Virus record (IMG/VR): IMGVR_UViG_3300005295_000004
Span: 1-51,510 of that record
Direction: 5' to 3' (one strand)
Origin: a virus
DNA: 51,510 bases
Shown: positions 26,290 to 51,510 of the stretch, one piece after another
Layout: each line of letters opens with the position of its first letter
Position numbering within the stretch: the stretch's first letter is position 1
Translations under genes and position numbers: made by a program
The notes under the pieces: generated by a model
Seen by the model: only the letters and a program-made list of their open reading frames with translations
Databases searched by the model: none
What the model was told of the DNA's origin: nothing

Positions 26290-26343
26290 GATTAAAGCCT
26301 CGCGTTTACTTGGTGTGCAATGAGAAAGGTTGAAGGGTGTGGG

Positions 26344-27552: not shown

Positions 27553-27559
27553 GGGGCGA

Positions 27560-27581: not shown

Positions 27582-27617
27582 GTATCGCGTGCTTATGGTT
27601 AACGCTAGAGGCTTATG

Positions 27618-27803: not shown

Positions 27804-28045
27804 GACCGAGGCGGTGCCTCTGTTATTTGCCATTCGTAGAAGAACGCCCATGTAGCCGGGATAACTGCCTCACACACAGCGTTTGAATCGCCCCATGTTG
27901 GCGACTCCGGTTTTTCTTTGCAGTCATAGATAGCAATCATTTCTGCGCCTTCAATTGGCCTGACTTCTAAGCCGTGTTCGCCGTGGGCTTCAATATCGAA
28001 TGTCACGCCGCTGGGGCCAACACATTTCACTTTCGATAGTCTCAT
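27800..28045 (-). CDS. hypothetical protein in head operon
   Basis: 81 aa from ATG 28045, whose last base is shared with the MuF stop (TGATG arrangement on the minus strand). MRLSKVKCVGPSGVTFDIEAHGEHGLEVRPIEGAEMIAIYDC followed by a Pro/Trp-containing second half. Beta-rich, no family recognised. Its coupling to the MuF gene suggests a head or injection-related role. Confidence 0.7.
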   Translation of the reverse strand: MRLSKVKCVGPSGVTFDIEAHGEHGLEVRPIEGAEMIAIYDCKEKPESPTWGDSNAVCEAVIPATWAFFYEWQITEAPPRS

Positions 28046-29484: not shown

Positions 29485-29714
29485 TGCACACCATGCGCAT
29501 ACTTAGTGAACGTCAATACTGTGGTGTCTTTGGTGAGCCCCTTCGCAGTGCTAACCATCACCGACACTTTGCAACGTTCAAAGATGAGTTTTTTAAATCG
29601 TTCTATCTTGTAATCATCCACGATGACGCCGGTTTTTAAACCGCCTTCGATAGCCGTGCATATCTGCGCTATCTGTTCGGCTTCAGTGTTACAACCCATT
29701 TCAACGTATTTCAT
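29481..29714 (-). CDS. hypothetical protein between portal and MuF genes
   Basis: A 77-aa protein (MKYVEMGCNTEAEQIAQICTAIEGGLKTGVIVDDYKIERFKKLIFERCKVSVMVSTAKG...). The alternating helical/beta look suggests a compact globular fold. ATGA overlaps join it to the genes on both sides, so it is made together with the head morphogenesis proteins. No family recognised. Confidence 0.75.
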   Translation of the reverse strand: MKYVEMGCNTEAEQIAQICTAIEGGLKTGVIVDDYKIERFKKLIFERCKVSVMVSTAKGLTKDTTVLTFTKYAHGVQ

Positions 29715-30001
29715 TGCAAGCTCGGGTGTTCGGGCACTTCGGTAGGTGTGATGCGCTGACCATGCAAGTCAACACCGTTAAGCCATCGCATGTAACGGCC
29801 GTATGCGTCTTTCTCTTTATCGGTGATAGTGCCGCTAAGCCACAAAGGCCAGATGCAATACCACATGCCGTGCATGCGTGCGATGTGTGGTTTAAGGTTG
29901 GGGAAATGAAAGCCCGGGGGAACATGGATTTGCCCCTGCGGTGCACGCACCATCTGCAAGGGCTCATCAGCGCCGAAGGGGTCATCGTCTTCTGTGATCA
30001 T
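29711..30001 (-). CDS. hypothetical protein downstream of portal
   Basis: 96 aa from ATG 30001, preferred because AGGGTG lies 7 nt upstream and the longer frame would overlap the portal gene. MITEDDDPFGADEPLQMVRAPQGQIHVPPGFHFPNLKPHIARMHGMWYCIWPLWLSGTITDKEKDAYGRYMRWL: acidic front and aromatic-rich middle. No family recognised. A diverged palindrome copy (30021-30036) straddles the gap before it. Confidence 0.75.
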   Translation of the reverse strand: MITEDDDPFGADEPLQMVRAPQGQIHVPPGFHFPNLKPHIARMHGMWYCIWPLWLSGTITDKEKDAYGRYMRWLNGVDLHGQRITPTEVPEHPSLQ

Positions 30002-30032
30002 GCGGCACCCTAGCGCACGACTGACGACCCCG

Positions 30033-32102: not shown

Positions 32103-32114
32103 TGCAAGCGCTCC

Positions 32115-33863: not shown

Positions 33864-33865
33864 TG

Positions 33866-34720
33866 TCAACCCAACAAATCAAGATAGGCTTTCTGTGCAT
33901 CTTCGATGCTGATGTTATCAGGCAACGTTTGTTTCGCTGTTTCGGCTGCGCGTTGTTCTGGTGTGCGTAAGTCTAACTTGTCGTTGTACGCACCACGCAT
34001 ACGCAGAATTTTATCCCATGCCGCTGACTGGTCGTGCATCTTGATTTCGATGCAACCATAGCGATCTTCTTTAGCGCCTGCATACAGCTTGCGCGCTTTG
34101 CCTGTTAGCTTCGACGTATCAGCAACGATGGTGTGCACAACGCCTTGACCGTAACAATGTGGGCAACCCGGTGCAGGCGCTGCATTACCTACGAAGCCGT
34201 AGCCGCCGGCCTCACTGGGTATCGTGATTTTTTTCTTGTCTTTGATTTTGCTTACAAGGTTGAACGCCTCTTGTTCGGCAAGGGCATCGGTTGCAGCAAC
34301 GAATGCGCTCATGAACTCGTCAAAGTCTTTCCACTGGTAGCCGTACTTGTCGCCGTTGCAATGGCGGCAGTTGTAGCGCTCGGTGCGCACCAACTCGTTG
34401 GGGTCTGCAGTAGCGATATCAATCTGCCATTGCAACGCCTCACGCAACGACATCAACACCTCGTTGGCGGCCTCCTCATGCAACACCTGATATCGGGCGC
34501 GCACCTTGGGCAGATTGGCAACGCGTGACGCCATCGCCCACACGCTCGCCGGGGTCGTCTTCGGGCCGACTTCGTAAGCCTCGCGATAGGCTGCAGATTG
34601 ATTGTCATACTTTGCCCACAGTTGGGCGAATCGCTCTTGCTTAGGCGTCAGCGCTTCACCGTCGATGTAATCAACATCGTCAGTTGTACAGGTTGCAAGT
34701 TGTTGCCTTGTCGTTTCCAT
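33866..34720 (-). CDS. terminase small subunit with zinc-finger insert
   Basis: 284 aa. N-terminal HTH region GEALTPKQERFAQLWAKYDNQSAAYREAYEVGPKTTPASVWAMASRVANLPKVRARYQVL matches Terminase_2-type DNA recognition. A middle zinc-binding insert uses CRHCNG and CPHCYGQG. The C-terminal DQSAAWDKILRMRGAYNDK region is typical of these subunits. First gene of the late operon, with RBS AAGGTGGAG. It recognises the packaging site, probably nearby. Confidence 0.88.
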   Translation of the reverse strand: METTRQQLATCTTDDVDYIDGEALTPKQERFAQLWAKYDNQSAAYREAYEVGPKTTPASVWAMASRVANLPKVRARYQVLHEEAANEVLMSLREALQWQIDIATADPNELVRTERYNCRHCNGDKYGYQWKDFDEFMSAFVAATDALAEQEAFNLVSKIKDKKKITIPSEAGGYGFVGNAAPAPGCPHCYGQGVVHTIVADTSKLTGKARKLYAGAKEDRYGCIEIKMHDQSAAWDKILRMRGAYNDKLDLRTPEQRAAETAKQTLPDNISIEDAQKAYLDLLG

Positions 34721-34808
34721 GACTCCACCTTAAAACACCCTCGGCACCGTTTGCAACATTATTCAATAGAAATAAGTAGATACGATTGGCACCCACACGC
34801 AACGCTCT

Positions 34809-34891
34809 TGCAAGGCTGCAACGCTTGCAACGTGTGATTCCCACCGCTACGCACCTTGCAAGGTGCAACGCTAAATTTACAAGATGCAAGG
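34809..34891 (+). repeat. iterated TGCAA(G/C)G motifs
   Basis: Exact copies lie at 34809 (TGCAAGG), 34817 and 34826 (TGCAACG), 34857 (TGCAAGG), 34864 (TGCAACG) and 34885 (TGCAAGG). A related TTGCAAC is at 34751. The 34852-34865 stretch CACCTTGCAAGGTG is a perfect 14-bp palindrome. Clustered short direct repeats in a single intergenic region beside an AT-rich tract are typical of replication-initiator or regulator binding sites. Confidence 0.65.
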
Positions 34892-34942
34892 CGCAACAGA
34901 GTTTGTCTTTAGAAACCCTTATACCCCCGGTTGAGAAATAAT

Positions 34943-34989
34943 AGATTGTAGATAGTAGAAGTAACGTGTTAATCTATCTTCTACAATCT
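34943..34989. repeat. 10-bp inverted repeat in AT-rich leader of the early operon
   Basis: AGATTGTAGA (34943-34952) and TCTACAATCT (34980-34989) are perfect inverted copies separated by 27 nt and followed by TTTTATTTTATA on the plus strand. The arrangement could be an AT-rich terminator/attenuator 28 nt before the ATG at 35018, or a protein-binding site in the origin region. Confidence 0.6.
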
Positions 34990-35017
34990 TTTATTTTATA
35001 AACAAGGTAACAAGGCC

Positions 35018-35650
35018 ATGTTTAAAGTGACCCCGACCGTTATGACTCGTGCGGAAGCGCACAGCCAAGGCTTGCGCACCTACTACACGGGCGTGCCGTG
35101 CAGGCGCGGCCATCTGTCCGCTAGAACCGTTGCGCAAGGTGCGTGCATGGAATGTATGGGAGCGTTTAAAACGCAAGCTGCAAAAAATGCTTTTGACAGC
35201 AACTTGGTGCCTTACGCATCGCAAGGCGTGTGGCGTCCTAAGTATTGGGATTTTGAAACGTTGAAGCGATTCAACGAAGCGGTGCAAAAACTCGTGCACA
35301 CTTGGGAGGATGCGCCGCCGGTCGTGCCTGTTGTAGAGGCTCGCAAGTTCCGTAAAATTTATGGCGAGAATTACTACAGCGCGAACGCGATCACCGGCAA
35401 AGATGGTGAGCAATACGATTTATGGTTTACACAAAAGGAAGGGCCGCGACCGCAAGCATGCGTCAGGGAACACGGCGGCCCCAATGCTCAATACTTTGAA
35501 ATCCTCACAGATGCAGGGTTGTTAGAACTGCCTTGGGTCTTTATGAATAACCGATGGTATGCGTTGGACGGTAAAACAGGCCAAGTGCATCCGGTCGTTA
35601 AAGATGAGCAACTAGATAACGCGCTGAGCACTTACGGCGTTGATGGCTGA
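35018..35650 (+). CDS. zinc-finger-containing hypothetical early protein
   Basis: A 210-aa protein. The first ~45 residues (TRAEAHSQGLRTYYTGVPCRRGHLSARTVAQGACMECM) match a zinc-binding module (C-x3-GH...C-x2-C) that in many phage proteins precedes an HNH or VSR-like nuclease. Here no nuclease motif follows. The remainder (DLWFTQKEGPRPQACVREHGGPN..., WVFMNNRWYALDGKTGQVHPV) is unrecognised. First gene after the divergent region, preceded by AAGG. Possibly a DNA-binding early protein. Confidence 0.75.
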   Translation: MFKVTPTVMTRAEAHSQGLRTYYTGVPCRRGHLSARTVAQGACMECMGAFKTQAAKNAFDSNLVPYASQGVWRPKYWDFETLKRFNEAVQKLVHTWEDAPPVVPVVEARKFRKIYGENYYSANAITGKDGEQYDLWFTQKEGPRPQACVREHGGPNAQYFEILTDAGLLELPWVFMNNRWYALDGKTGQVHPVVKDEQLDNALSTYGVDG

Positions 35651-35662
35651 TAGCCTACTAGA

Positions 35663-35678
35663 CTGACGACCCTGTCAG
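35663..35678 (+). promoter_or_regulatory. palindromic operator before gene 35728
   Basis: CTGACGACCCTGTCAG, a member of the 16-bp palindrome family (arms CTGAC/GTCAG). It lies 13 nt after the stop of the first early gene and 50 nt before the next ATG. A -35-like TAGACT overlaps it, but no strong -10 is visible. Confidence 0.7.
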
Positions 35679-35727
35679 CGTGTAGGCTGCATCTGCTTAT
35701 CTTTTCATCCTACATGGAGTCACTACA

Positions 35728-36183
35728 ATGTCTGAACGTAAACAAGCGGCCCGCGCGTCACTGCTAACACTCATCAAGCGCTACGTTAACCCGGTGAAGC
35801 TGGGTCAAGAATCAATGCAGCGGCTACAAGACGCCGTCAACGAAATCGAAGCGGCAGCGATTGAAGCCCACACAGCACTACACAATCCTAACCCGGCCGA
35901 AGCGTTTGCCGGCGGTGTGCATCCTGAGAACGAAGTCGTTAAGGAAGAAGGCACACACGATGCACCCGTGCTCACTGTTGATGCTACAAGCGGCGAGCCG
36001 ATAGAGGGCGGCGGCATTAGTATTTACAAAGACGGCGTGGAGCGCCTGAGCGTGCCTAACGGTCAACCCGCTATTGTCAACGCTCCTGCGCATGATGAAT
36101 CGCACACGCAACGTGAGGAAGCAATTAAAAAGCCTGATGAATCTGAAGCCGATCACCCCGGCGACGGTCAGCCGCACGCCTAA
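35728..36183 (+). CDS. acidic hypothetical early protein
   Basis: A 151-aa, strongly acidic protein. Helical basic start (MSERKQAARASLLTLIKRYVNP), coiled-coil stretch (RLQDAVNEIEAAAIEAHTAL), a beta-rich centre, then a disordered acidic tail (DESHTQREEAIKKPDESEADHPGDG). RBS GGAG upstream. Its own operator precedes it and a strong terminator follows, so it forms a single-gene unit. Acidic small early proteins are sometimes DNA mimics, but nothing specific supports that here. Confidence 0.75.
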   Translation: MSERKQAARASLLTLIKRYVNPVKLGQESMQRLQDAVNEIEAAAIEAHTALHNPNPAEAFAGGVHPENEVVKEEGTHDAPVLTVDATSGEPIEGGGISIYKDGVERLSVPNGQPAIVNAPAHDESHTQREEAIKKPDESEADHPGDGQPHA

Positions 36184-36218
36184 ACGTTTTAAGTTCCCGG
36201 CAAATCCCCCTCCGGTAC

Positions 36219-36247
36219 GCCCCTGCTAATCACAGGGGCTTTTTTTA
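36219..36247 (+). terminator. strong rho-independent terminator
   Basis: GCCCCTG (36219-36225), a 7-nt loop and CAGGGGC (36233-36239) followed by seven T residues. It ends the unit at 35728-36183 and separates it from the next operator-promoter at 36273. Confidence 0.93.
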
Positions 36248-36272
36248 TTGTGTGACGCAGTTCTCTAGCATC

Positions 36273-36294
36273 CTGACGACCTCGTCAGTATGAT
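36273..36294 (+). promoter_or_regulatory. early promoter with palindromic operator
   Basis: CTGACGACCTCGTCAG (36273-36288) is followed directly by TATGAT (36289-36294), a -10-like hexamer. Downstream comes the shared leader CACCCACACTGAACGCAACGG and then the ATG at 36327. The upstream TCTAGCATC, shared with the 38023 promoter, fills the weak -35 region. Confidence 0.75.
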
Positions 36295-36326
36295 GCACCC
36301 ACACTGAACGCAACGGAGCTACTACG

Positions 36327-36554
36327 ATGAACACCAGCGCACCACACCAAACCCGCGCGATTCGCAAGATACTGGCCGGCATGCCCGTAGAAGTGAACAC
36401 TATGCGTCAGTTCCCTGACACGCGCATCGCCTCTAATGAATTGGAAGTGATCACACAAGCCTCTGTGTTGTTGACCGCTGCGGGCTTCAAGTGCACACCG
36501 GTAAGCGATTGCGCCGGCATGTTCAACATTTATGCAACGAAGGTGCAAGCATGA
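36327..36554 (+). CDS. hypothetical early protein
   Basis: 75 aa (MNTSAPHQTRAIRKILAGMPVEVNTMRQFPDTRIASNELEVITQASVLLTAAGFKCTP...). Compact alpha/beta appearance with two cysteines near the C-terminus. RBS CGGAG upstream. First gene of a two-gene unit driven by the 36273 promoter. No family recognised. Confidence 0.75.
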   Translation: MNTSAPHQTRAIRKILAGMPVEVNTMRQFPDTRIASNELEVITQASVLLTAAGFKCTPVSDCAGMFNIYATKVQA

Positions 36555-36769
36555 ACTACCCGCCGCACGTTAAGGATGTGTACAGCTTTTTTATCGGCCT
36601 GCGTTTGTACATATTGGACTGCATCACCTATACGGCAACGTATCAATTCTCATGGATGCCGCTTTTGCAAGTGTGGCGCGGCGGTGATGTATTGAGGCCG
36701 TTCGCCTCGTGGGTGACAGACGATTACGGCACACTTGTGCAAATTGTGAAGCCCGTCACTTTACACTGA
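36551..36769 (+). CDS. aromatic-rich hypothetical early protein
   Basis: 72 aa from ATG 36551, overlapping the preceding stop (ATGA). Rich in Tyr/Trp/Phe (YSFFIGLRLYILDCITYTATYQFSWMPLLQVW), so it is possibly membrane-associated through one hydrophobic stretch. The next promoter starts at its very end. No family recognised. Confidence 0.7.
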   Translation: MNYPPHVKDVYSFFIGLRLYILDCITYTATYQFSWMPLLQVWRGGDVLRPFASWVTDDYGTLVQIVKPVTLH

Positions 36770-36787
36770 CGACCTCGTCAGTATACT
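36760..36787 (+). promoter_or_regulatory. early sigma70-type promoter with operator in the spacer
   Basis: TTTACA (36760-36765), the perfect palindrome CTGACGACCTCGTCAG filling the entire 16-bp spacer (36766-36781), then TATACT (36782-36787). This is the clearest example of the family. A bound protein would sit between -35 and -10 and block RNA polymerase. The shared leader CACCCACACTGAA follows. Confidence 0.85.
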
Positions 36788-36820
36788 GCACCCACACTGA
36801 AACGAAACGAGGGCCGCAAC

Positions 36821-37264
36821 ATGAAAATGACCATTAACGACATCCGCAAAGTTATCCGCCGCGCAGCTTGGGTGCGTAACGATTTTTCAGGCATCCGTGA
36901 AGAATTCATCGCGCAGCCTGTTGATACCATCATGCAAGAGAAGATTGCAGAACTGCAGGCGCTGGTGATTCCTGCACGCTTCGCACGTGACATCGCAGAA
37001 CGCGACGAAGAAATCACCTACTGCCTGCGCACCATTGGCCGTTGGCTGGCTGCTAAAGCGGGCCTCGCCCCTTGCAGCGTATCGCGCGAAGCATACGAAG
37101 CCGCAGGACGTGCCACGCTGGCTGTTGTTGTCGATGATGTGCAGGCCATCTACGACCGCATGAAACCTGAATTCGATTACATCGCGCCGGAACTATTGAA
37201 GCCTGCAAAACAAGTGTTGAATCGTCGCCCTGCATTGCGCGTGATTCAAGGGGGTAAGCAATGA
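36821..37264 (+). CDS. hypothetical early protein, helical
   Basis: 147 aa, predominantly helical (MTINDIRKVIRRAAWVRNDFSG, IMQEKIAELQALVIPARFARDIAERDEEITYCLRTIGRWLAAKAG). Ends RVIQGGKQ with its stop overlapping the next start (ATGA). Preceded by CGAGGG as RBS and by the 36760 promoter. No family recognised. Confidence 0.75.
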   Translation: MKMTINDIRKVIRRAAWVRNDFSGIREEFIAQPVDTIMQEKIAELQALVIPARFARDIAERDEEITYCLRTIGRWLAAKAGLAPCSVSREAYEAAGRATLAVVVDDVQAIYDRMKPEFDYIAPELLKPAKQVLNRRPALRVIQGGKQ

Positions 37265-37758
37265 GCGGCCTTTGGTATGAATGGGATTGTGAACTTGTTG
37301 CGATCTATCGCGATGAGAACGGCGACGAGATAGACAACGACATTATAGAGCACGATCACCGCGACACCTTTAAAGAAGTGCGAGCGCTGGCCGCTACAGG
37401 CGCACCGGCAGGCCATGAACACCACATCGTGTTAGTGCGCACTGACGACAACAGCCGGTCGTGGGCGTACTTGGGTGACGATGGCAAGCTGCCTGAATAC
37501 TTTGAGGATGCTTACGGTAAGCACACATCGAAGGTGCCCCAGCGATATCACGATGAAGTGTTCAGGGCCGGCCCGTCTGTTGTGTCGTTTGTGATGTCTC
37601 TTGTACCCATTACAATGGGCAACTATCGGATGTATAGCTGTGCGGTCGACTATGCGTTCCACGGCGTTATTCGTTATTCAGATGACACACAGAAAGGCGT
37701 GTATTCATCTGACCGGACTGATGTGATTCGATTTGTCGCTAAGGAGTTGCACGCATGA
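37261..37758 (+). CDS. hypothetical early protein
   Basis: 165 aa, acidic, His/Asp-rich near residues 20-60 (DNDIIEHDHRDTFKEVRAL...GHEHHIVLVRTDD). Aromatic-rich C-terminal half (YRMYSCAVDYAFHGVIRYSDD). ATGA overlaps with both neighbours. No family recognised. The His/Asp pattern might bind metal. Confidence 0.72.
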   Translation: MSGLWYEWDCELVAIYRDENGDEIDNDIIEHDHRDTFKEVRALAATGAPAGHEHHIVLVRTDDNSRSWAYLGDDGKLPEYFEDAYGKHTSKVPQRYHDEVFRAGPSVVSFVMSLVPITMGNYRMYSCAVDYAFHGVIRYSDDTQKGVYSSDRTDVIRFVAKELHA

Positions 37759-37997
37759 GCGGCGGTACAGTATGCAAGTGCGCTGAAAGTAAGAAGCCAA
37801 TGGCGCAGCGTGCATGGGTTGTAACGCAGCGTAAGTGCAATCATTCAGCGTTTAACGGATATCACTATCAATACAGCCAGTGGTCAGCAATCGTTTGCCT
37901 TGGCGTTGGATGTCCTGCCGCATGGCGCACGAAAGCTGCTTATGTTGCACAACTCGCTGATGCGAAGCATACGCCGTCGGGGTACGTGAAAGCGTAA
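37755..37997 (+). CDS. small Cys-rich hypothetical protein
   Basis: 80 aa (MSGGTVCKCAESKKPMAQRAWVVTQRKCNHSAFNGYHYQYSQWSAIVCLGVGCPAAWRTK...). The CxC, CNH and CLGVGC pattern suggests a zinc ribbon. Related small proteins with W.V..R.CNHSAF...S.WS...C..C..W.RT are widespread in phages without assigned role. Third gene of its unit. Confidence 0.75.
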   Translation: MSGGTVCKCAESKKPMAQRAWVVTQRKCNHSAFNGYHYQYSQWSAIVCLGVGCPAAWRTKAAYVAQLADAKHTPSGYVKA

Positions 37998-38022
37998 AAC
38001 TGTGACGTGTGTCTCTAGCATC

Positions 38023-38044
38023 CTGACGAGGTCGTCAGTATAGT
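38023..38044 (+). promoter_or_regulatory. early promoter with palindromic operator
   Basis: CTGACGAGGTCGTCAG (38023-38038) then TATAGT (38039-38044), followed by ACACCCACACTGAAC leader. The upstream TCTCTAGCATC is identical to that at 36263, showing that the promoters arose by duplication. Confidence 0.78.
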
Positions 38045-38074
38045 GACACCCACACTGAACAACGAGGCAAGACG

Positions 38075-38236
38075 ATGTCACATTACACGCGGTTTGATTC
38101 TTATACCAAAATGGGCCTTTCGCACCGGCTGGCATTCGATTTGTGCGTAGGGGTGTTAATGGGCGAATTCGTAGGCATGCAACGCACGCTTGCTGCAACG
38201 CTCGTTTCCAGCTCCATCACAATGGGTTATAAATAA
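38075..38236 (+). CDS. 53-aa hypothetical early protein
   Basis: Starts at ATG 38075 with GAGG upstream, directly under the 38023 promoter: MSHYTRFDSYTKMGLSHRLAF, then DLCVGVLMGEFVGMQRTLAATLV, ending ITMGYK. Its stop shares a base with the ATG of the next gene (TAATG). The promoter, RBS and coupling make it credible despite its size. No family recognised. Confidence 0.7.
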   Translation: MSHYTRFDSYTKMGLSHRLAFDLCVGVLMGEFVGMQRTLAATLVSSSITMGYK

Positions 38237-39036
38237 TGAGCACACATACACATCGCGGGCACTGCCAAGTTTGCCTGCGCATCCAAGCAATCGACACGGC
38301 AACCGGTCGCGTTGCTGTTCACGGCTACCGAGTTAAACACGGTTTTTTCTCAGGCCGTTGCCCCGGTAGTGAATCGCTGTCATTACATGTTGAGCGCACT
38401 ATCACTGACGGCTGCATAGCGCATTATCAAGCCGACGCGAAAGACCACGCAATAAAGGCGCAAGAATACAAAGACGGCAAGCGCCTGCCCGAGCAAGTGC
38501 GCATCGGGGAGCGCCGTATCCCTGACCCCAACAACCGGGGCCGCGTGCATTACGAAGATATCATCGTACCTTATGCTGAAGCGGCCGAGCTGTACCAATT
38601 GAACGCGGTTCGCGTGGCGATCTACAAGCATGAGTCAGCAGCAACGGAAGCGTTGCGCATGAAAAACATGATGCAGGAATGGGCCGCGCGCGTGTTCGAT
38701 AACAAAACGCCAGCCTATCGCGTTGAAGATTTAGAGGTACGCGACTGGAAGGTAGGCGATACCGTTCGTATCGGCGGCAAGAAAGGTTTTACCGCCACCA
38801 TCGAAGCCATCGAAGACAAGCCCTATAAAACGCGCGGCTTCGGTCGTGGTTCTGAAACGATCATGTGCCCACACGCACGCATCACACAGCCCGGCTTGCC
38901 TGAGATTCGCACAGCACGTACAGGCATCATCACACGTGAAGCGCGCCCAGCTAAACAGTATTGGGAGCCACTGCGCCACATCAAGCGGCCCAAGTCGGCA
39001 TTGATTGAATCACTAAAAAAGGCGAATTTACTATGA
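38236..39036 (+). CDS. hypothetical early protein with N-terminal zinc-binding module
   Basis: 266 aa. N-terminus HRGHCQVCLRIQAIDTATGRVAVHGYRVKHGFFSGRCPGS matches a small CxxC...HGY...GxCPGS module frequent in phage and plasmid proteins. A helical middle (YQADAKDHAIKAQEYKDG) and an SH3-like stretch (WKVGDTVRIGGKKGFTATIEAIEDKPYKTRGFGRGSETIMCPHARI) follow. Probably nucleic-acid associated. Function unknown. Confidence 0.75.
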   Translation: MSTHTHRGHCQVCLRIQAIDTATGRVAVHGYRVKHGFFSGRCPGSESLSLHVERTITDGCIAHYQADAKDHAIKAQEYKDGKRLPEQVRIGERRIPDPNNRGRVHYEDIIVPYAEAAELYQLNAVRVAIYKHESAATEALRMKNMMQEWAARVFDNKTPAYRVEDLEVRDWKVGDTVRIGGKKGFTATIEAIEDKPYKTRGFGRGSETIMCPHARITQPGLPEIRTARTGIITREARPAKQYWEPLRHIKRPKSALIESLKKANLL

Positions 39037-39449
39037 GCAACACCGATCACCGCTGCCCACGTAACGGCATGTCATGCGGCACCGACTCGAAACTATGGTG
39101 CCGTGATTGCCCGCAGTTGAAAGACGCAACCACACCGGTTGCAATCGTAGGTACGGCACCGCCGGTCGTCAGTGATTACCCGCCTGTGCCTTCGGGTGCG
39201 CATGGTGCGCCGCTCGCGTATCAAGTCGGCGTCAATCAGTTGTTTGATGTGCTCATTGATTGGCAGCACCCTGTGAGACACGTTGCGTTGACACCTGCGC
39301 AAGCGGTCGCACTCGCCGGCAGTCTCAAGCGCGTGGCGAACCTCGCTATTACGCAGAAGAAGAAAGCACAGCGGGCCGAGTTGTTAGGCGGCCAACTGCG
39401 CGCGAAGCTTCAAGAGAGATTGAAAGGAGGTGCAGCAACAGACGAATAA
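39033..39449 (+). CDS. hypothetical early protein, Cys-rich start
   Basis: 138 aa. N-terminus MSNTDHRCPRNGMSCGTDSKLWCRDCPQ suggests a zinc site. The C-terminal half is helical and basic (LTPAQAVALAGSLKRVANLAITQKKKAQRAELLGGQLRAKLQERLKGG). ATGA overlap with the preceding gene. A strong AAAGGAGGTG sequence lies at its 3' end, but no open frame follows it. Confidence 0.72.
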   Translation: MSNTDHRCPRNGMSCGTDSKLWCRDCPQLKDATTPVAIVGTAPPVVSDYPPVPSGAHGAPLAYQVGVNQLFDVLIDWQHPVRHVALTPAQAVALAGSLKRVANLAITQKKKAQRAELLGGQLRAKLQERLKGGAATDE

Positions 39450-39497: not shown

Positions 39498-39527
39498 TGT
39501 TGAAAGTGTGACGCGCAACACAGACGC

Positions 39528-39549
39528 CTGACGACCTCGTCAGTACAGT
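39528..39549 (+). promoter_or_regulatory. early promoter with operator, no leader
   Basis: CTGACGACCTCGTCAG (39528-39543) followed by TACAGT (39544-39549). The next ATG is at 39557, only 7 nt beyond the -10, so transcription would start at or next to the start codon. The CACCCACACTGAA leader of the sister promoters is missing. Confidence 0.65.
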
Positions 39550-40574: not shown

Positions 40575-40692
40575 CCCGCACGCGCCGCGCCGTTATCCGC
40601 GTGACCCTTTAGCGGATGACGACCGGCGCTACTTCTGCAACGAACCTTATTGTAAAGGTCACATAATAGAGGATGACGTGTGCAATGTGTGA
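40534..40692 (+). CDS. 52-aa hypothetical protein overlapping the coiled-coil gene
   Basis: ATG 40534 with GAGGG 9 nt upstream encodes MENLEKPPGLTPDDPHAPRR followed by a charged stretch and a Cys-containing end (YFCNEPYCKGHIIEDDVCNV). Overlaps the end of the previous gene by 41 nt and stops 17 nt before the next operator. The four cysteines (CNEPYC...C) could bind zinc. Size and overlap leave some doubt. Confidence 0.5.
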   Translation: MENLEKPPGLTPDDPHAPRRYPRDPLADDDRRYFCNEPYCKGHIIEDDVCNV

Positions 40693-40702
40693 TGTGGTTC
40701 AC

Positions 40703-40731
40703 TAGACGACTGACGACCTCGTCAGTAAGAT
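40703..40731 (+). promoter_or_regulatory. early promoter with palindromic operator
   Basis: TAGACG (40703-40708), 17-bp spacer containing CTGACGACCTCGTCAG (40710-40725), then TAAGAT (40726-40731). The leader GCCCACACTGAAACGCAACGGAG with its Shine-Dalgarno precedes the ATG at 40766. Confidence 0.82.
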
Positions 40732-41979: not shown

Positions 41980-42186
41980 ATGACGCGCGACGAATGCGGC
42001 GGCACCCTATGGTTCACGGGTGAAACGTTTTATGCCTATGAACTACGCAAGCGTCGGCGCGGTGCGCCTGACTACGCTGAATGGCGGCCGCGCCGGTCGC
42101 AATGGTCTACCGATCATGGCGGCCGGGCGTTTGTAACTGACGACTTCGGCAGCCTTGTAGAAGTACCTCGCAAAACTGTGATGTAG
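41980..42186 (+). CDS. basic hypothetical early protein
   Basis: 68 aa (MTRDECGGTLWFTGETFYAYELRKRRRGAPDYAEWRPRRSQWSTDHGGRAFVTDDFGSLVEVPRKTVM). Arg/Trp-rich, probably nucleic-acid interacting. AGGA upstream; last gene of the unit from 40703. No family recognised. Confidence 0.72.
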   Translation: MTRDECGGTLWFTGETFYAYELRKRRRGAPDYAEWRPRRSQWSTDHGGRAFVTDDFGSLVEVPRKTVM

Positions 42187-42190
42187 TTCC

Positions 42191-42219
42191 TAACACTCTG
42201 ACGAGGTCGTCAGTAAGAT
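42191..42219 (+). promoter_or_regulatory. early promoter with palindromic operator
   Basis: TAACAC (42191-42196), 17-bp spacer containing CTGACGAGGTCGTCAG (42198-42213), then TAAGAT (42214-42219). A slightly altered leader (ACACCCACACGAACACACAACCGGAG) precedes the ATG at 42256. Confidence 0.8.
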
Positions 42220-43489: not shown

Positions 43490-43554
43490 CTGACGACCCT
43501 GTCAGGGGTGAAAATCGTGACCGGTTTCACACTTCACACTGACAAGGGCGTCAA
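43490..43554 (+). promoter_or_regulatory. operator region before gene 43557
   Basis: CTGACGACCCTGTCAG at 43490-43505 overlaps the previous stop, with TTGACT (43485-43490) as a -35-like hexamer. A second, diverged site CTGACAAGGGCGTCAA (43539-43554) contains the AAGGG Shine-Dalgarno of the gene at 43557. GTGAAA/TTTCAC is a small inverted repeat between them. No good -10 is seen. Confidence 0.6.
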
Positions 43555-43556
43555 TC

Positions 43557-43769
43557 ATGAAAGCGCTGTTTTTAATTCTCGCGTGCCTAGTATCGTTTTC
43601 GTTAATTGGTTATGGCTTTTACAGCGGCCATGCGTTTTTAACCGTCTTGCTGATCGTTGTTGTTTTTGTAGCAGTTCTTTTTATATCGTTCGCGATGTGG
43701 CTTGAAGATGAACACGAGCGCGACGGCAACGACCCTTTCAAGAATCCGTACAATCAACCCGAGGATTGA
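43557..43769 (+). CDS. small two-helix membrane protein
   Basis: 70 aa with two hydrophobic segments (ALFLILACLVSFSLIGYGFY and AFLTVLLIVVVFVAVLFISFAMW) and a charged acidic tail (EDEHERDGNDPFKNP). Chosen over an overlapping frame at 43508 because AAGGG precedes this ATG and the protein is coherent. Envelope location expected, function unknown. Confidence 0.75.
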   Translation: MKALFLILACLVSFSLIGYGFYSGHAFLTVLLIVVVFVAVLFISFAMWLEDEHERDGNDPFKNPYNQPED

Positions 43770-44721: not shown

Positions 44722-44919
44722 ATGCGTTTTTCATTGAATGGCGATGGCTCAATTCATGATGCGGCGTTCCCGCGCAACGTGGTGATTACCATCACGACCA
44801 AGTCCCACCCATCGACTACCGAGCGGGAATACGCAGAACACATTTGCAGGGTGCTGAACGCTGGCGCACCGGCAAGGGCGGCTACCCCCGCTGTGCAGCC
44901 TGAAACGCGCCAAGGATAA
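44722..44919 (+). CDS. small hypothetical protein
   Basis: 65 aa (MRFSLNGDGSIHDAAFPRNVVITITTKSHPSTTEREYAEHICRVLNAGAPARAATPAVQPETRQG). GAGGTG precedes the ATG. REYAEHICRVLN resembles the C-terminal helix of several small phage proteins. Last gene of the early arm; its 3' end overlaps the convergent primase gene by 38 nt. Confidence 0.7.
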   Translation: MRFSLNGDGSIHDAAFPRNVVITITTKSHPSTTEREYAEHICRVLNAGAPARAATPAVQPETRQG

Positions 44920-47482
44920 CTTGTACGTTGCGCTCGTGGGCTCCGGGCGTGTCCTGCTTGACATAGAGAAACGGCCGGGTGCCGTCAGTGTCATTGATTG
45001 GCAAACGACCATCAGGCAGCCCGGCGTGTGGGAAGTAGCCGAGCCCTTCCAACATTTCCCGGCGCTTGTTCCGGGGTATGCTCGCACCCTTGCCGATGGT
45101 CAATAGGAGGCGATCTAACGCGGTCGATGATATCCACCCGCCACGGAAGCCCGCCACACTCTGCGCAATTGATTCTATGACTTCCTGCTCAGCCAGACCG
45201 AGCCCGGCGCTGATAGCTTCCTCGGTCGCTGATGTCTTCGGGCAGCGTATGCAATCTTTCGCCGGGTTCCATTCGTTTGGAATCTGGAAACTCTGCAGAT
45301 AGTCAGCAACAATGAATTTGCCCTCACCCATGCGCCAGTCACGAAGCTGTTGCATGTATCGCATGCCCATGCCGTCGCGCTCTAGGTCATCTTCATTTTG
45401 TTGAGCACAGAAGAACGGGCCTATGCGTCGATCATTCTTTGTTTTGCGGATTGCGTTTTTGTGGTTGGTGTTCATCACACCGTTAAAGCAAACCTCGCGT
45501 GTCACCTTGTCTACGCCCTTGCCTTCGATTTCAAGCTTCACACCGGTAATCATCGGCTTGAGTGCTTCCCACAACGAGCCGCGCGACTCGCTAATATAAA
45601 CGTCTTCGCAACATATCAGCAGCTTGCCATAGAACGCGCTATTGAATTTTGAACCGAGTTCTGCAGCCTTGGGCCAGTGGGTGTAACGTTCACCGATTGC
45701 GTATTCAAGTAAATAACTCAGCGTTGTTTTGCCGTTACCTTCGACGCCTTGAATCAACGGCCACCATTGAAATTTTTCACCAGCGTATTGCACACAGGCT
45801 GCGAAGTACGAAAGCAATATTTGTGCGTCGTTGCCTTTGGGTAACAGCTTGTATAGATGCGTGAGGAATGGCGACACATCACCCTTTTTGCGCACGATGA
45901 TTGACGGCACATAAGAGTTAATCAACGTCATGTTGTCGCGGTTGATGATGGTACGCGGCGCTATGCGTGGATCAAAGAACATCCCTTTAACTTTTGGGAA
46001 GTGATGAATCTCTGAGAACACGAACGCATCCCAAGCTTTTTTTGATGGTCGCTGACCGTCAGCCGTGGTGATGAATGTGTAGCCAGAAAATTCCGCGTCG
46101 AATTTCTCAGGGCTCAGCGTGTGACCTTGGGGCATCAGCACTTGGTGTATGTCTTGCACGTACACGCAGCCATCAAACATTGCAACTTGTTGGGCTTGTA
46201 TTAGTGTGTCACCAATCGGCGGGCGTGTGCCGGGTGCAATAGGCTTGTTAGGATCGTAGGGAAGAAAGGGGGTTGTTTCTTGTTCCGGCTTACGCTCATC
46301 CGTCACCAACCCCACAGTTGGAACCGCTGCGCCTGCGTTAACAGGGGTAGTCGCGATTGGTGCCAATACTGACAGGGTCGTCGGTAGATGTAAAGCAACG
46401 CTCGCCCCTGTGGTCGTGACGGTCGGCTGAAGCGTTGCCGGCATCGACTGGACAGGGGCGACGGTAGGCGCTGCGTCTGACGCCGCAGAGGTACTACGCG
46501 GGTCTTTATACCACTGGCGTTGCGAGCCGCAAGCGCGTTGTATGGTATCGTGAAGATAGCCTACACGGTCCCACTTCGGGCGAACCAAGGCAGACCGCCA
46601 TAGCAATCGTTGCATGCGTTCCCCGTGGTTGCCGGTCCAGAACGCAAGATGATTGGCAAGAGCGAGGTCTGCGGCGCTGGCGTCATAGCTGCCGTGTTGT
46701 TGAGGTGGGAAAGCGCGGGCCAACGCGTTGGGGGTTGCATGCCATAAATCAGCGAACGCAGCTTTGCCACCGAACACAGCAGCACCACTTTGTGACCGCA
46801 TGGCACGGCGTAGTAACTCGTCGTCATCTTGGGGGCCGCTCCATTCTTTAACCGGTGCCGTCGTCAACTCGTCGCCGTACTCGGTGTCATCGTGAGGTGG
46901 GAAATAAGCTACAAGCGCATGCAGTTCCGCCGTCAAGTCTTTGAGAGGGTCGCCCATAGCACCTAGCCCGGTGCATGCGATAAAACGTAACCGTGTGTAC
47001 AGCTCTAAACCATACGTCTTGTTGCGCGTGCCATGATCCGGCCGGGCTCCATGATAAGAGCCATAAACGTGGAGCCCGTTTTGAGATACGCTGACCTCAA
47101 CACCACCGCCCGGCAACTTATCGAGAAAGGCACGCGCGTGCGGTGCCCACTGGTTGCCGTCGCGGCATTTATCGATATCAAGTGCAAACAACCTGCGCCC
47201 GTTGGGCAACACGATGTTTTCAGAAATGATTACGCCTGTACCGTACCCCATGACGCCCGGCGCAAGCGGTTGGGCATTCCACATTTCCGCCCACATGACT
47301 GCCTCGTCAGGCGTAAGCCACCCGGCAGGATCATGCGGGCTTGTATCGTAGCCCGTGATTGGATCGGTCGGCACCTTGTCAAGCTTCGGATTGCCTTTAG
47401 CATCCACCGCAGAAACTAATCTGTAGAGAATGAAGGCACGAATGCCTTGTAACGCCCCGCGTATATCGCTAGAGTCCGCCAT
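44882..47482 (-). CDS. bifunctional primase (AEP) - SF3 helicase
   Basis: 866 aa. The N-terminal archaeo-eukaryotic primase-like domain has LFALDIDKCRD (DxD), SVSQNGLHVYGSY (sxH motif) and LELYTRLRFIACTG. Then ADLALANHLAFWTGNHGERMQRLLWRSALVRPKWDR is the small helical domain seen in NrS-1-type polymerases. After an Ala/Pro/Thr-rich linker (~330-410), the SF3/DUF5906 ATPase has GVEGNGKTT (Walker A), LLICCEDVYIS (Walker B) and NGVMNTNHKNAIRK. It primes and unwinds at the phage fork alongside the split polymerase. Last gene of its operon. Confidence 0.9.
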   Translation of the reverse strand: MADSSDIRGALQGIRAFILYRLVSAVDAKGNPKLDKVPTDPITGYDTSPHDPAGWLTPDEAVMWAEMWNAQPLAPGVMGYGTGVIISENIVLPNGRRLFALDIDKCRDGNQWAPHARAFLDKLPGGGVEVSVSQNGLHVYGSYHGARPDHGTRNKTYGLELYTRLRFIACTGLGAMGDPLKDLTAELHALVAYFPPHDDTEYGDELTTAPVKEWSGPQDDDELLRRAMRSQSGAAVFGGKAAFADLWHATPNALARAFPPQQHGSYDASAADLALANHLAFWTGNHGERMQRLLWRSALVRPKWDRVGYLHDTIQRACGSQRQWYKDPRSTSAASDAAPTVAPVQSMPATLQPTVTTTGASVALHLPTTLSVLAPIATTPVNAGAAVPTVGLVTDERKPEQETTPFLPYDPNKPIAPGTRPPIGDTLIQAQQVAMFDGCVYVQDIHQVLMPQGHTLSPEKFDAEFSGYTFITTADGQRPSKKAWDAFVFSEIHHFPKVKGMFFDPRIAPRTIINRDNMTLINSYVPSIIVRKKGDVSPFLTHLYKLLPKGNDAQILLSYFAACVQYAGEKFQWWPLIQGVEGNGKTTLSYLLEYAIGERYTHWPKAAELGSKFNSAFYGKLLICCEDVYISESRGSLWEALKPMITGVKLEIEGKGVDKVTREVCFNGVMNTNHKNAIRKTKNDRRIGPFFCAQQNEDDLERDGMGMRYMQQLRDWRMGEGKFIVADYLQSFQIPNEWNPAKDCIRCPKTSATEEAISAGLGLAEQEVIESIAQSVAGFRGGWISSTALDRLLLTIGKGASIPRNKRREMLEGLGYFPHAGLPDGRLPINDTDGTRPFLYVKQDTPGAHERNVQVILGAFQAAQRG

Positions 47483-47553: not shown

Positions 47554-47850
47554 TTACGCGGCGATGTACTTCGCTACTTTCTTCCTTAAAGCGGCACTCA
47601 TGGGCACCCCGATTTTTTCGCGACATGAACGCGCATCTGCAAGTATCTTCAACATTTCATGTTCAACCGCGTGTTTGACAATCGCGGTGCGTACTTCAGG
47701 CATCGTGCCGAAGTGATAAGACACCGTTGATTGCCCAACGCCTGCAGCGTTTGCAATATCAATACGCGAGAACTGAAGCAAGCCCACGTCATTCGCAAGC
47801 TTGACGGCTGCGGTAAGAATGGCTTGGCGTGAATTGTCGTTTGGTTTCAT
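47554..47850 (-). CDS. mini-TetR DNA-binding regulator
   Basis: 98 aa. RQAILTAAVKLANDVGLLQFSRIDIANAAGVGQSTVSYHFGTMPEVRTAIVKHAVEHE is a full TetR_N helix-turn-helix with the recognition helix GQSTVSYHFG. The ~100-residue ligand-binding domain of normal TetR proteins is absent; only a short basic helical tail (ALRKKVAKYIAA) follows. TetR proteins bind palindromes as dimers, and the phage has one palindrome family before most early units and at this operon's own promoter. It is the only clear transcription-factor candidate found. Confidence 0.85.
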   Translation of the reverse strand: MKPNDNSRQAILTAAVKLANDVGLLQFSRIDIANAAGVGQSTVSYHFGTMPEVRTAIVKHAVEHEMLKILADARSCREKIGVPMSAALRKKVAKYIAA

Positions 47851-47862
47851 AGTCTGGTGATC

Positions 47863-48372
47863 CTATAGTGAGCCTACAGCTTTGACAATGGCTGCATTCC
47901 CGCCAAGTGAATTTATTAAAGTGCTCCATGCAAGTTGTGCGTTTTCCTCAAGCGTTCCGCTATAACTCCAGTCTGCGCGCTTGCACTCACGCGATACAAA
48001 CTGACCGATGACACTGCCGACCATGTCAGGCGCGATGCGTACCGGCTTAACGCCGATCAAATCCGCTGACTTCATAACTTCGTTGACCTTTTTACTATCG
48101 TTACCGAGCCCCCAGCGTATCGGCCTGCGGGCGTTCTTTGCACATTCAGGGCAAAGGTCACGTGCGTTTGCGACAATGCCTGCCCCTGAGTTATTGCGCC
48201 ACAAGTAAACACCCCGTTGCGGCGCTTCAAGCCTGATTGCCGATTGTACATATGCTTCAGTCTTACCACTGACGAGGGCGTCAGGCTCAGGGTCAACAAT
48301 ACTACACGCGACGAGTTCTGCAAATGCTTGTTGAGAGATTCCCCAACGTGCGGCCCATTCATGCAAGGTCAT
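47863..48372 (-). CDS. VRR-NUC domain nuclease
   Basis: 169 aa from ATG 48372 (ACGGAG upstream and ATGA overlap). N-terminal HTH-like LHEWAARWGISQQAFAEL, then the VRR-NUC pattern: EAPQRGVYLWRNNSGAG, RWGLGNDSKKVNEVMKSADLIGV, FVSRECKRADW (ExK) and TLEENAQLAWSTLINSLGGNAAIV. E..., D of SADLIG and ECK form the PD-(D/E)XK centre. A four-Cys insert (CPECAKNAR) is present. Such nucleases pair with phage SF2 helicases, perhaps for recombination or Holliday-junction processing. Confidence 0.88.
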   Translation of the reverse strand: MTLHEWAARWGISQQAFAELVACSIVDPEPDALVSGKTEAYVQSAIRLEAPQRGVYLWRNNSGAGIVANARDLCPECAKNARRPIRWGLGNDSKKVNEVMKSADLIGVKPVRIAPDMVGSVIGQFVSRECKRADWSYSGTLEENAQLAWSTLINSLGGNAAIVKAVGSL

Positions 48373-48593
48373 AGCGTAGTAACTCCGTTGATCGTGTCGG
48401 TTTTGCGGTGCACCCAATCGTGATTTATGGGTGCGTGAGATGGCGCATAAACGTGTTGTACAGCGCATCGAGCGCTGCACTTTGCGCATTGCTTGTAATC
48501 AATCGTTGCAACATGCGTGATCACAACCCAGCGATGAAACCAACAAGGATGTTGTGGGACGCTCAGGGAAATGATTTGATGTGTAACGATCAT
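48369..48593 (-). CDS. small Cys/His-rich protein
   Basis: 74 aa (MIVTHQIISLSVPQHPCWFHRWVVITHVATIDYKQCAKCSARCAVQHVYAPSHAPINHDWVHRK...). CAKCSARC plus several His residues suggest a zinc finger. The start overlaps the MazG-like stop and its stop overlaps the VRR-NUC start, both as ATGA, so it is a genuine member of the operon. No family recognised. Confidence 0.75.
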   Translation of the reverse strand: MIVTHQIISLSVPQHPCWFHRWVVITHVATIDYKQCAKCSARCAVQHVYAPSHAPINHDWVHRKTDTINGVTTL

Positions 48594-49021
48594 TCAGGGC
48601 AACCCCACTCAACAGGATGCGAGCGCCCGCATGATTCGCAGTCGTTACGTGTGGGTGATAGGTTCGCGGTGCCGTCGTGCACTTTCTCTGCATGCTTGCG
48701 TTGCCAATACTCTTTAGGCAACGACGCGACGCGCTCCCATTCGCGGTTTATCTCGTGTGCAAAATCATGGCCGACAGCTTCAGAGAAACCTAGTAATGTA
48801 ATCCCGCAACCGCCAATCTCTTGGCCGATGTCTTTGCTAACCGGGCGCGAATAAGTGCGGCGCGCGATCTTGTCCACAGTTTCAAGCTTGACGCCGGCAG
48901 CCTGTGCAATCTCGATTGCTTCTTCAAGTAATCGTGCGGCGCGTTCGTCAATGTTGGTTGCCACAAGGCCGAAGCGATCAACGGCCCATTCTAAAACTTG
49001 CTCTTGATCAACAATATTCAT
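48590..49021 (-). CDS. MazG-like NTP pyrophosphohydrolase
   Basis: 143 aa. ERAARLLEEAIEIAQAAGV (EExxE-like helix), SKDIGQEIGGCGITLLGFSEAVGHDFAHEINREWERVASLP (ExxD-type helix) and EYWQRKHAEK are typical of phage MazG-like all-alpha nucleotide hydrolases, which clean or reshape the dNTP/NTP or ppGpp pool. The extra C-terminus CESCGRSHPVEWGCPE may bind zinc. ATGA overlaps on both sides. Confidence 0.82.
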   Translation of the reverse strand: MNIVDQEQVLEWAVDRFGLVATNIDERAARLLEEAIEIAQAAGVKLETVDKIARRTYSRPVSKDIGQEIGGCGITLLGFSEAVGHDFAHEINREWERVASLPKEYWQRKHAEKVHDGTANLSPTRNDCESCGRSHPVEWGCPE

Positions 49022-50730
49022 GCTTGCACCTCTTGCACGTTGTAGCGTTGTAAATCTGCGGCGATACGCGCCTCAAGTTCTGTTGCTGGTGTCAACGGCA
49101 ACGCTTGAGCGCTTAAATAGTCGATGCCGTAACGAATGAAAAATAACTTTTGTGATTCGCGTTCGTTCAAACCTAAATGCTTTTGATAGCCACCCCACAA
49201 CATCATAGTGTGGCGCAGTGTTGTCTGACCTCTGAACCTGTCGTGATGGTGGCGTAGCTGTGCTTTGACGATGTAGCCCGGCATGCCTTGCGGTGCCACA
49301 TATGGTCCCATGATTTTTTCAGTCTCGCCACGCAATGCGCGCAACACATCAGGATCAAGCTCTATCAAATCGCCTTGCACAAGCTCGGGTGTTGAGCGTC
49401 CCGCCGGCTCCGGTTCGGTGCCGCAGTATCTGCACTTCACTAGATATGCTTCGTATGGTTGTTTGCAGTTCAAGCAAGTGCGCAGTGGGATTGCATCAGA
49501 TTTGCGCGAATTACGCTCCCCGCTTAACAGGCTGTATTCTTGGCGTGAATCAAACAAACCGCGAAACTTCGCATGCCAAATGATGTTTCCCACGTGGTCG
49601 ATAATGATCGCCTTCGGCTTGTTTGAATTCGCTATGAGTGCGAGCCGTTCAACGTCACTGTATTGCGGCCAGTAACGCGCGTATTGATCGTCAACCATTA
49701 CACGCAACGCACGACCGACTTGCTGACACAATAACTGCCAAGATGCAGTGCGGCGGACAAGGCTGACAACTTCGATTGCGGGAACGTCAACACCTTCGCC
49801 CAAGCAATCAACCGACACAAGTTGCAGTATCTGACGTGCTTTAAATTTGCGCATCAGTTGGCCGCGTATGGTTATCGGTGTTTCATCGGTGATGACTTCA
49901 GCCGGCACACCTGCAGCAACATAGGCGTTGCGCAGTTTCACCGCTTCCTCTTTATCAACTGCGAATGTTACACCCAGCTTGCCGGCGGCATACTGCAAGT
50001 AAGTTTTAACCACATCGCCAACGATATGGTTATCTGCATGCGTTGCGGCGCGCAGCTTGGGCATGTTGTATTCGCCCGAGGGTCCGATAGGCACGTCAGC
50101 GAGTGCAATATCACTACCAACACATACAAGCCGGTAATCAGTTAGAAACCCACGGTTGATAAGCTGCCGACCATAAGGGCCAACTACAAGACGATCTACA
50201 AACCCCTCGCCACCTTCACGCCCTAACCCTTTACCATCTGCGCGCAATGCGTGCGCTGTGGGGAACAACCAACGTGCGTTAGGAAACTTGCCAACCTCGC
50301 GGCCCCATTTATTTTCACGAAGGACGTGATGCCCCTCGTCAATCACACCATATCCGACTTGTGAAAACCAACGGTCGTTTGTGTCATAGTTGCGCAGTGT
50401 GTCCACGCCGGCCACACGTGTGCGGGCTCGTGAGTTGTACGTAGAGTGACCTTGCAAGTCATGCTCAAGCGCAATGATTTGTTGCACAACTGCTTTAGGC
50501 GCAATGATGGAGTGCGGCACGCGTTCACGATTCAATGATAGGGCCGCTTGACTTACCAGCTCTTGCCGGTGCGCAATCACGATTGAAGGGCAGTCAAATT
50601 TCGTGAGCGTATCACAGAACAACACAGTCTTGCCGCCGCCCGTAGGCATAACCGGCATAACAACTATTGCCCCCTCTTGGTAGGCTTGAAAGGTTGTGTT
50701 TTGTACTGTGCTTTGGAAGTCGTAGAGCAT
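49018..50730 (-). CDS. SF2 (DEAD/DEAH-like) helicase with zinc ribbon
   Basis: 570 aa. Motif I PTGGGKT, Ia IAHRQEL, II IDEGHH, III region FPTAHALRADGKGLG, IV-V region LVSVDCLGEGVDVPAI, VI QQVGRALR. Residues ~410-440 have CLNCKQPYEAYLVKCRYCG, a zinc ribbon. It resembles RecG/Rad25-like phage helicases used for replication restart, recombination or late transcription. First gene of the regulator operon, transcribed from the double-operator divergent promoter. Confidence 0.9.
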   Translation of the reverse strand: MLYDFQSTVQNTTFQAYQEGAIVVMPVMPTGGGKTVLFCDTLTKFDCPSIVIAHRQELVSQAALSLNRERVPHSIIAPKAVVQQIIALEHDLQGHSTYNSRARTRVAGVDTLRNYDTNDRWFSQVGYGVIDEGHHVLRENKWGREVGKFPNARWLFPTAHALRADGKGLGREGGEGFVDRLVVGPYGRQLINRGFLTDYRLVCVGSDIALADVPIGPSGEYNMPKLRAATHADNHIVGDVVKTYLQYAAGKLGVTFAVDKEEAVKLRNAYVAAGVPAEVITDETPITIRGQLMRKFKARQILQLVSVDCLGEGVDVPAIEVVSLVRRTASWQLLCQQVGRALRVMVDDQYARYWPQYSDVERLALIANSNKPKAIIIDHVGNIIWHAKFRGLFDSRQEYSLLSGERNSRKSDAIPLRTCLNCKQPYEAYLVKCRYCGTEPEPAGRSTPELVQGDLIELDPDVLRALRGETEKIMGPYVAPQGMPGYIVKAQLRHHHDRFRGQTTLRHTMMLWGGYQKHLGLNERESQKLFFIRYGIDYLSAQALPLTPATELEARIAADLQRYNVQEVQA

Positions 50731-50751: not shown

Positions 50752-50825
50752 ATTATATTTTGCAAACAGTTGACAGGGTCGTCAGTCTAGCTTTATCGTC
50801 CGACTGACGACCCTGTCAGTATCCC
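50752..50825. promoter_or_regulatory. divergent promoter with two palindromic operators
   Basis: Two members of the 16-bp family, 34 bp apart centre to centre: TTGACAGGGTCGTCAG (50770-50785) and CTGACGACCCTGTCAG (50804-50819). On the plus strand TTGACA overlaps the first site, and TATCCC (50820-50825) follows the second just as -10 hexamers follow the early operators. On the minus strand TATAAT (50757-50752) serves the helicase operon. So both replication operons, including the mini-TetR gene, appear to share this control region. Confidence 0.75.
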
Positions 50826-50853: not shown

Positions 50854-51510
50854 ATGCAACTAATGTTAAACGTTAAAGAGGAAACCCCGGCAGCGTTGCG
50901 TTTATGCGCTAACTACCTGCTTGAACAAGCCGCCCTTGCTGAACGCGAAGCCGGCACAACCCCTGCAGCGCCTGTTGTACCGATTGCACCTGCAGCACCC
51001 GTCGCCCCTGTTGCCCCATTGGCACCCGCTGCACAGGATGCGAACAGCTCCAGCCCTTTAGTCCCGCCTGCCCCTATTGTGACGGTTCCCGCTTCTTCTA
51101 CAGTGAACCCGACCTTGGCCCCTGCGCCTGCGTCAGCCCCCGCTGCACCTTCCGCACCGATTGCACCTGCAGCACCTGTTGCGGATGAATTCGACGCCTC
51201 GGGCGTTCCGTTCGATGGCCGCATACATCAGAAAACCAAAGGCAAGAAAAAAGACGGCACTTGGAAATTGCAAAAAGGTATTGCTGACGACCTTGTCAGT
51301 GCGGTGATGAAAGAACTAACGCCGCGTATTCAACGCCCAACCCCCGCCGCACCCGTTGCACCTGCAGCCCCAGCGGCACCGACTGCGCACTACATCAACG
51401 GCGTGTTACAGCCTGCAGTGCCTGCCGTTGCCCCGCCGATCTTTGGACAAACGCCGTTGCCTGTGGGTGTTGATCCTGCCCCGGTGTCTCCCACGGCACC
51501 GCAAGCCCCT
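50854..51510 (+). CDS. Ala/Pro-rich phage protein with conserved RIH...DGTW motif (continues at 2-247)
   Basis: 219 codons to the window end, 291 aa when joined to the left end. A helical N-terminus (ETPAALRLCANYLLEQAALAERE) is followed by long Ala/Pro repeats (PAAPVAPVAPLAP type). At residues ~117-142 is a conserved core: SGVPFDGRIHQKTK, then KKKDGTWKLQKG. That core (xxFDxRIHxxxKxxxxDGTWxxxKG) recurs in replication operons of many phages without known activity. First gene under the divergent double-operator promoter. A palindrome copy (51284-51299) lies inside it. Confidence 0.82.
   Translation, partial: MQLMLNVKEETPAALRLCANYLLEQAALAEREAGTTPAAPVVPIAPAAPVAPVAPLAPAAQDANSSSPLVPPAPIVTVPASSTVNPTLAPAPASAPAAPSAPIAPAAPVADEFDASGVPFDGRIHQKTKGKKKDGTWKLQKGIADDLVSAVMKELTPRIQRPTPAAPVAPAAPAAPTAHYINGVLQPAVPAVAPPIFGQTPLPVGVDPAPVSPTAPQAP

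Follow-up and report, generated by a model that had tools for sequence, protein, structure and literature searches.

The stretch of viral DNA analysed here (IMG/VR record IMGVR_UViG_3300005295_000004, positions 1 to 51,510; 51,510 nucleotides, hereafter the window) carries on its minus strand an operon with the order helicase, ORF 48590-49021, nuclease, regulator and primase, in which the regulator is a small TetR-like protein, here called mini-TetR. The operon and the two palindromes at its start are as follows.

44882 to 47482, minus strand: NrS-1-like primase, directly downstream of the regulator
47554 to 47850, minus strand: mini-TetR regulator gene (98 aa), ATG start; recognition helix at residues 40-47 (QSTVSYHF)
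47863 to 48489, minus strand: nuclease/resolvase-like gene immediately before the regulator, whose true start may lie further inside
48590 to 49021, minus strand: ORF between helicase and nuclease
49018 to 50730, minus strand: helicase, first gene of the operon
50770 to 50785, minus strand: putative operator palindrome CTGACGACCCTGTCAA upstream of the helicase/regulator operon, with TATAAT 12 bp downstream
50804 to 50819, plus strand: putative operator palindrome CTGACGACCCTGTCAG of the divergent recombination/replication operon

Residues 11-51 of the regulator match the Pfam family TetR_N (PF00440) with an E value of 2.3e-7 (30.9 bits against a gathering cut-off of 24), and the protein also matches PHROG 8723 (E = 1.5e-20). 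An earlier reading of this DNA, made from the sequence alone, had placed the ORF correctly and had described its product as a truncated TetR. The C-terminal ligand-binding domain of about 120 residues is indeed absent, only 35 residues following alpha4, and this holds across most homologues; however, the homologue alignment is conserved through to the C-terminus, indicating that mini-TetR is a complete and compact TetR family with 35 C-terminal residues of its own rather than a truncation. An AlphaFold model computed from an alignment of 24 homologues, and used in place of the single-sequence model (pLDDT 52), reached a pLDDT of 91 and contains six helices, with alpha5 at 67-75 and alpha6 at 86-97. 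Helices alpha1-alpha4 of this 24-row model match TetR HTH structures in the PDB (VIA-align Z 10-12), and alpha6 superposes at about residues 155-180 of TetR-family structures, near the dimer helix, which suggests, as one reading of the superposition, that the ligand-binding core was lost from inside the protein and not by cutting off its end. Full-length Foldseek matches among viral models were three small viral proteins (TM 0.85-0.86).

Mini-TetR resembles the TetR/AcrR repressors (TetR_N, PF00440; for example AmvR, EilR, QacR and RutR) in its alpha1-alpha4 with the HTH and, as judged by sequence, in a short palindromic operator over promoters and in autoregulation. Unlike them, it has 98 residues instead of about 190-220, lacks the ligand-binding core, has a short alpha5-alpha6 whose last helix superposes on the TetR dimer-helix region, and has about 20 sites scattered over the genome where they have one or two. 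Proteins of the same family lie at the same place beside the primase in Jedunavirus and Yokohamavirus, where they are annotated as "TetR family transcriptional regulator" (JD001 gp45, AAM22 gp73); these are annotations only, and no description of their operator or regulon was found in the literature searched, which omits most subscription papers. In PEAT2 the homologue (L032:14201-14479) carries no annotation, and in AAM22 (L027:19938-20276) the annotated start falls on the operator, the true start being probably at 19998. The regulators of Scuro (L031:21424-21924) and SppYZU01 (L030:38065-38565) have 167 residues, with an extra N-terminal HTH-like copy of the same domain that amounts to a tandem duplication; such a protein is possibly a single-chain dimer.

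The palindrome to which this regulator had been linked is far above chance in the window. Allowing up to 3 mismatches on both strands, CTGACGACCTCGTCAG has 43 matches where 0.28 are expected; CTGAC-N6-GTCAG occurs in 17 exact copies, against a maximum of 3 for any 5-mer palindrome in shuffled sequence, and the core TGAC-N6-GTCA in 26, against a shuffle mean of 1.1 and a maximum of 4. Selected copies, with the CRP-like sites beside them, are listed below.

903 to 918, plus strand: exact palindrome within ORF 759-1028; relative G001 has the arms at the aligned place too
35663 to 35678, plus strand: putative operator upstream of ORF 35728-36183, without a clear CRP-like site
36251 to 36266, plus strand: CRP-like TGTGA-N6-TCTCT, centred near -41.5, of presumed function
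36273 to 36288, plus strand: putative operator abutting the -10 TATGAT (36289-36294)
36766 to 36781, plus strand: putative operator abutting the -10 TATACT, conserved in two relatives; CRP-like site at 36745-36760 (TGTGA-N6-TCACT)
38023 to 38038, plus strand: putative operator abutting the -10 TATAGT; CRP-like site at 38001-38016
39528 to 39543, plus strand: putative operator abutting the -10 TACAGT; CRP-like site at 39507-39522
40710 to 40725, plus strand: putative operator abutting the -10 TAAGAT; CRP-like site at 40688-40703
42198 to 42213, plus strand: putative operator abutting the -10 TAAGAT; CRP-like site at 42177-42192
43490 to 43505, plus strand: first palindrome of a pair, upstream of ORF 43557-43769
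43539 to 43554, plus strand: second palindrome of the pair (CTGACAAGGGCGTCAA), beside the start of ORF 43557

When the relatives were aligned, palindromes at aligned places remained exact while their flanks fell to about 70-77%, and the conserved palindromes sit at promoters. About half of the cores in the window are intragenic, and most of these are not conserved in two relatives. Intragenic palindromes nevertheless exceed chance (903-918, 4901-4916, 24038-24053, 25071-25086 and 51284-51299).

Six copies (36273, 36766, 38023, 39528, 40710 and 42198) lie immediately next to a -10-like hexamer, and TGTGA stands 21-22 bp upstream of the palindrome in all six; counted from the -10, a CRP-like TGTGA-N6-TCACN thus lies near -41.5 in the window promoters. 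The same layout of operator, -10 and CRP-like site recurs in two relatives, IMGVR 3300009983 and 3300018059. CRP of the host may act as an activator at these sites. Most window-clade promoters also have a conserved element, CCCACACTGAA(C/A)G, after the -10 (36297-36307 in the window), near the expected transcript start. TAnnnT is most enriched 23 bp from the start of the palindrome in Jedunavirus-like phages (24 occurrences against 1.7 expected), so that their left arm is the -35 hexamer, with a 17-bp spacer; V. cholerae 138 (Vch138) and Scuro also peak at 23 (10 against 0.5). The window clade peaks at 16-17, and its operator lies in the spacer and reaches the edge of the -10. Judged from position, both placements, on the -35 hexamer and at the spacer/-10 edge, would block RNA polymerase, as classical repressor positions do.

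The sequence-only reading had taken two palindromes at the start of the regulator's operon as a sign of autoregulation. Both are present; however, they share a divergent intergenic region, one beside each operon, and the regulator gene itself has no palindrome immediately before it in the window or elsewhere in its clade; control of the window's regulator probably runs through the operon start at 50770. What supports autoregulation is the operator in the regulator's own promoter in many relatives. An exact palindrome stands 50-62 bp before the regulator start in JD001, PEAT2, KsaM-C1, AAM22, MSW-3, Scuro, L048, L049, L052 and L077 (the list spans L048-L053 when near-copies are included), and one with a single mismatch in Vch138 and L073; in Jedunavirus-like phages this operator reads TTGACCA-N3-CGTCAA. 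A palindromic operator overlapping a promoter, usually that of the regulator gene itself, is thus visible by sequence in many relatives, the window not among them.

By tblastn, 85-91 phage records carry a homologue of the regulator, many of them near a primase; they include phages of Klebsiella, Edwardsiella, Pantoea, Pectobacterium, Vibrio and Acinetobacter, with the gene in the helicase-resolvase-primase region. Counting every 4-mer palindrome with a spacer of 2-12 genome by genome, which covers more than 1,000 palindromes and does not presuppose the motif, we found TGAC-N6-GTCA at rank 1-2 in the window, JD001, PEAT2, KsaM-C1, AAM22, MSW-3, Vch138, Scuro and two UViG relatives, and homologues in phages that share the operator are often only 23-33% identical to the window protein. 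The top 5-mer palindrome is TGACG-N4-CGTCA in JD001, PEAT2 and AAM22, TTGAC-N6-GTCAA in MSW-3 and TGACA-N4-TGTCA in Scuro. Promoter sites in JD001 stand in front of the regulator, gp47, the recombination operon, the Gp2.5-like gene and small genes without a known function, encoded opposite to the structural genes. A baseplate gene also has one site in front of it in JD001 (the baseplate spike) and PEAT2, so that "early genes only" would be too strict a description. The dispersed palindrome is absent from PD0307, AeroV, B2, V1.009 and others despite their homologue, and the regulator gene alone therefore does not predict a regulon.

The motif accompanies recognition helices of the type (G/E)-(S/T/A)-(V/I/L)-(S/N)-(H/Y)-H, an association noticed after the fact, whereas phages with PPALTYHF-, GPAIQYHF- or SGQTINHYF-type helices have neither own-promoter nor dispersed sites. 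On the regulator tree the operator label falls into clusters and changes at least 4 times, but inner support is weak, and we do not regard covariation of helix and operator as statistically established. Four other palindromes were considered as alternative operators, in phages whose homologue comes without the TGAC motif, and rejected: TAGC-N6-GCTA in PD0307 is a single conserved site with no regulon, AACC-N8-GGTT in L072/L065 is a coding tandem repeat, GACG-N4-CGTC in SppYZU01 and V367.14 is intragenic, and ACAA-N3-TTGT in ep3 is mostly intragenic, with a different repressor at the same locus there. The divergent helicase/recombination promoter of homologue-bearing phages without the dispersed motif has TTGAC and GTCAA about 30 bp apart (L028:30990-31085, L029:12585-12680, L036:11010-11110, L038:31620-31725 and L039:17390-17475), a pair that represents two overlapping face-to-face -35 elements. 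Agrobacterium phage 7-7-1 (L039) has eight TACA-N7-TGTA palindromes at 25865-39122 (consensus TACAAATNNNTTGTA), mostly between a TTGAC -35 and the -10; this operator differs from TGAC-N6-GTCA, and a diverged regulator homologue lies between resolvase and primase. Since the phage also encodes an XRE regulator, the pairing of homologue and palindrome there is only a candidate.

Leaving out shadow ORFs, we compared eight palindrome-rich phages, all of which keep the helicase, nuclease, regulator, primase, exonuclease, Gp2.5-like protein and the 50836 ORF of the window. The regulator is the only recognised HTH protein common to all eight, and neither a set of 20 ORFs made up of the accessory region and ORF 50836 nor the further ORFs checked contained a recognised HTH family. 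These results agree with the earlier description of the TetR-like protein as the only evident DNA-binding regulator. Moreover, its proposed role over the palindrome regulon is supported by distant regulator-sharing phages that use the same operator and, in many cases, have it in the regulator's own promoter. The pairing of mini-TetR and palindrome, as far as genome comparison can tell, looks real.

Other explanations were weighed against this pairing. The consensus of RutR, TTGACCANNTGGTCAA, has the same outer arm and spacing as the phage palindrome, and the operators before the regulator in Jedunavirus-like phages read TTGACCA-N3-CGTCAA. RutR is itself a TetR-family regulator that binds a palindromic site of about 16 bp (PMC10891134), and a phage or host protein of this type could bind the repeats while mini-TetR has a different role. 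We consider this unlikely, because phages with very different hosts share the motif, because it goes with a single regulator clade and sits in that regulator's own promoter, and because no second recognised HTH protein is present in all palindrome-rich phages. It is less probable still that the repeats are strong sigma70 promoters with palindromy as a by-product, or hairpin or terminator elements. The left arm does resemble the -35 hexamer TTGACA, but it is not at -35 distance in the window clade, and the right arm GTCAA/GTCAG, unneeded by sigma70, is conserved as much as the left; sigma70 accounts for one arm only, whereas a dyad binder accounts for both. No T-run follows the palindromes, which speaks against terminators.

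A further alternative is that mini-TetR does bind the palindrome and activates, or acts in both directions depending on operator position. The TetR-family proteins LuxR and HapR can activate as well as repress (PMC2628434), and the operator position does differ between the window clade and the enterobacterial phages. Against activation, the operator lies on the -35 hexamer in enterobacterial and Vibrio phages and at the spacer/-10 edge in the window clade, whose promoters already have a CRP-like site at the usual activator position; we regard this possibility, too, as improbable.

We therefore favour, with a probability of about 0.76, mini-TetR as an autoregulated repressor that shuts off early promoters in lytic phages, with binding, dimerisation, repression and timing all inferred from genome sequence. 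In such a scheme, a dimer of the compact repressor would bind the 16-bp palindrome (C/T)TGACG-N4-CGTCA(G/A), with CTGACGACCTCGTCAG and TTGACGGACTCGTCAA as predicted targets, in promoters of the sigma70 type that serve the helicase/regulator/primase operon, the recombination operon divergent from it and the small accessory operons. Host RNA polymerase would use these promoters after entry, and the accumulating regulator would then occupy them and shut them off, its own promoter included in most relatives. As there is no ligand domain, the signal would be the regulator's concentration, together with operator copy number as the genome replicates. Dependence on concentration had been proposed before; the 98 residues and six helices support it by inference, and operator position points to repression and its presumed timing.

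The proposal of a compact phage switch fared less well. No match to PF00589, PF00239 or PF01381, that is, no integrase, serine recombinase or CI/Cro-type HTH_3, was found in the record, which is possibly incomplete, and no opposing regulator is present. The best-known relatives, those of Jedunavirus, are described as virulent. A shut-off of early promoters under autoregulation fits better than a CI/Cro-like switch. Like the dispersed-operator repressors of temperate phages (Cluster A mycobacteriophage stoperators (PMC9283540, PMC6550527), P1 C1 and SP-beta repeated elements), mini-TetR would be one repressor with many genome-wide sites. However, those systems keep prophages silent, and no lysogeny gene was found here. 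Stoperators are asymmetric, monomer-bound and inside operons, whereas the mini-TetR sites are symmetric and in promoters; a layout of asymmetric sites within operons, oriented with transcription, is not seen for the window palindromes.

More tentatively, and at somewhat less than even odds, a lytic myovirus lineage may have made a ligand-free minimal TetR, with the DNA-binding domain and one retained dimer helix, into a genome-wide early shut-off repressor whose operator and recognition helix diverged together, the window-clade promoter being rebuilt so that host CRP replaces the -35 role. The favoured reading offers a testable transcription programme for Jedunavirus-like phages, some of which are therapy candidates against Klebsiella, and a role for a gene so far known there only by name. 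If true, it would place a ligand-free TetR at the small end of the family and provide natural regulator/operator pairs for studying the evolution of TetR specificity.
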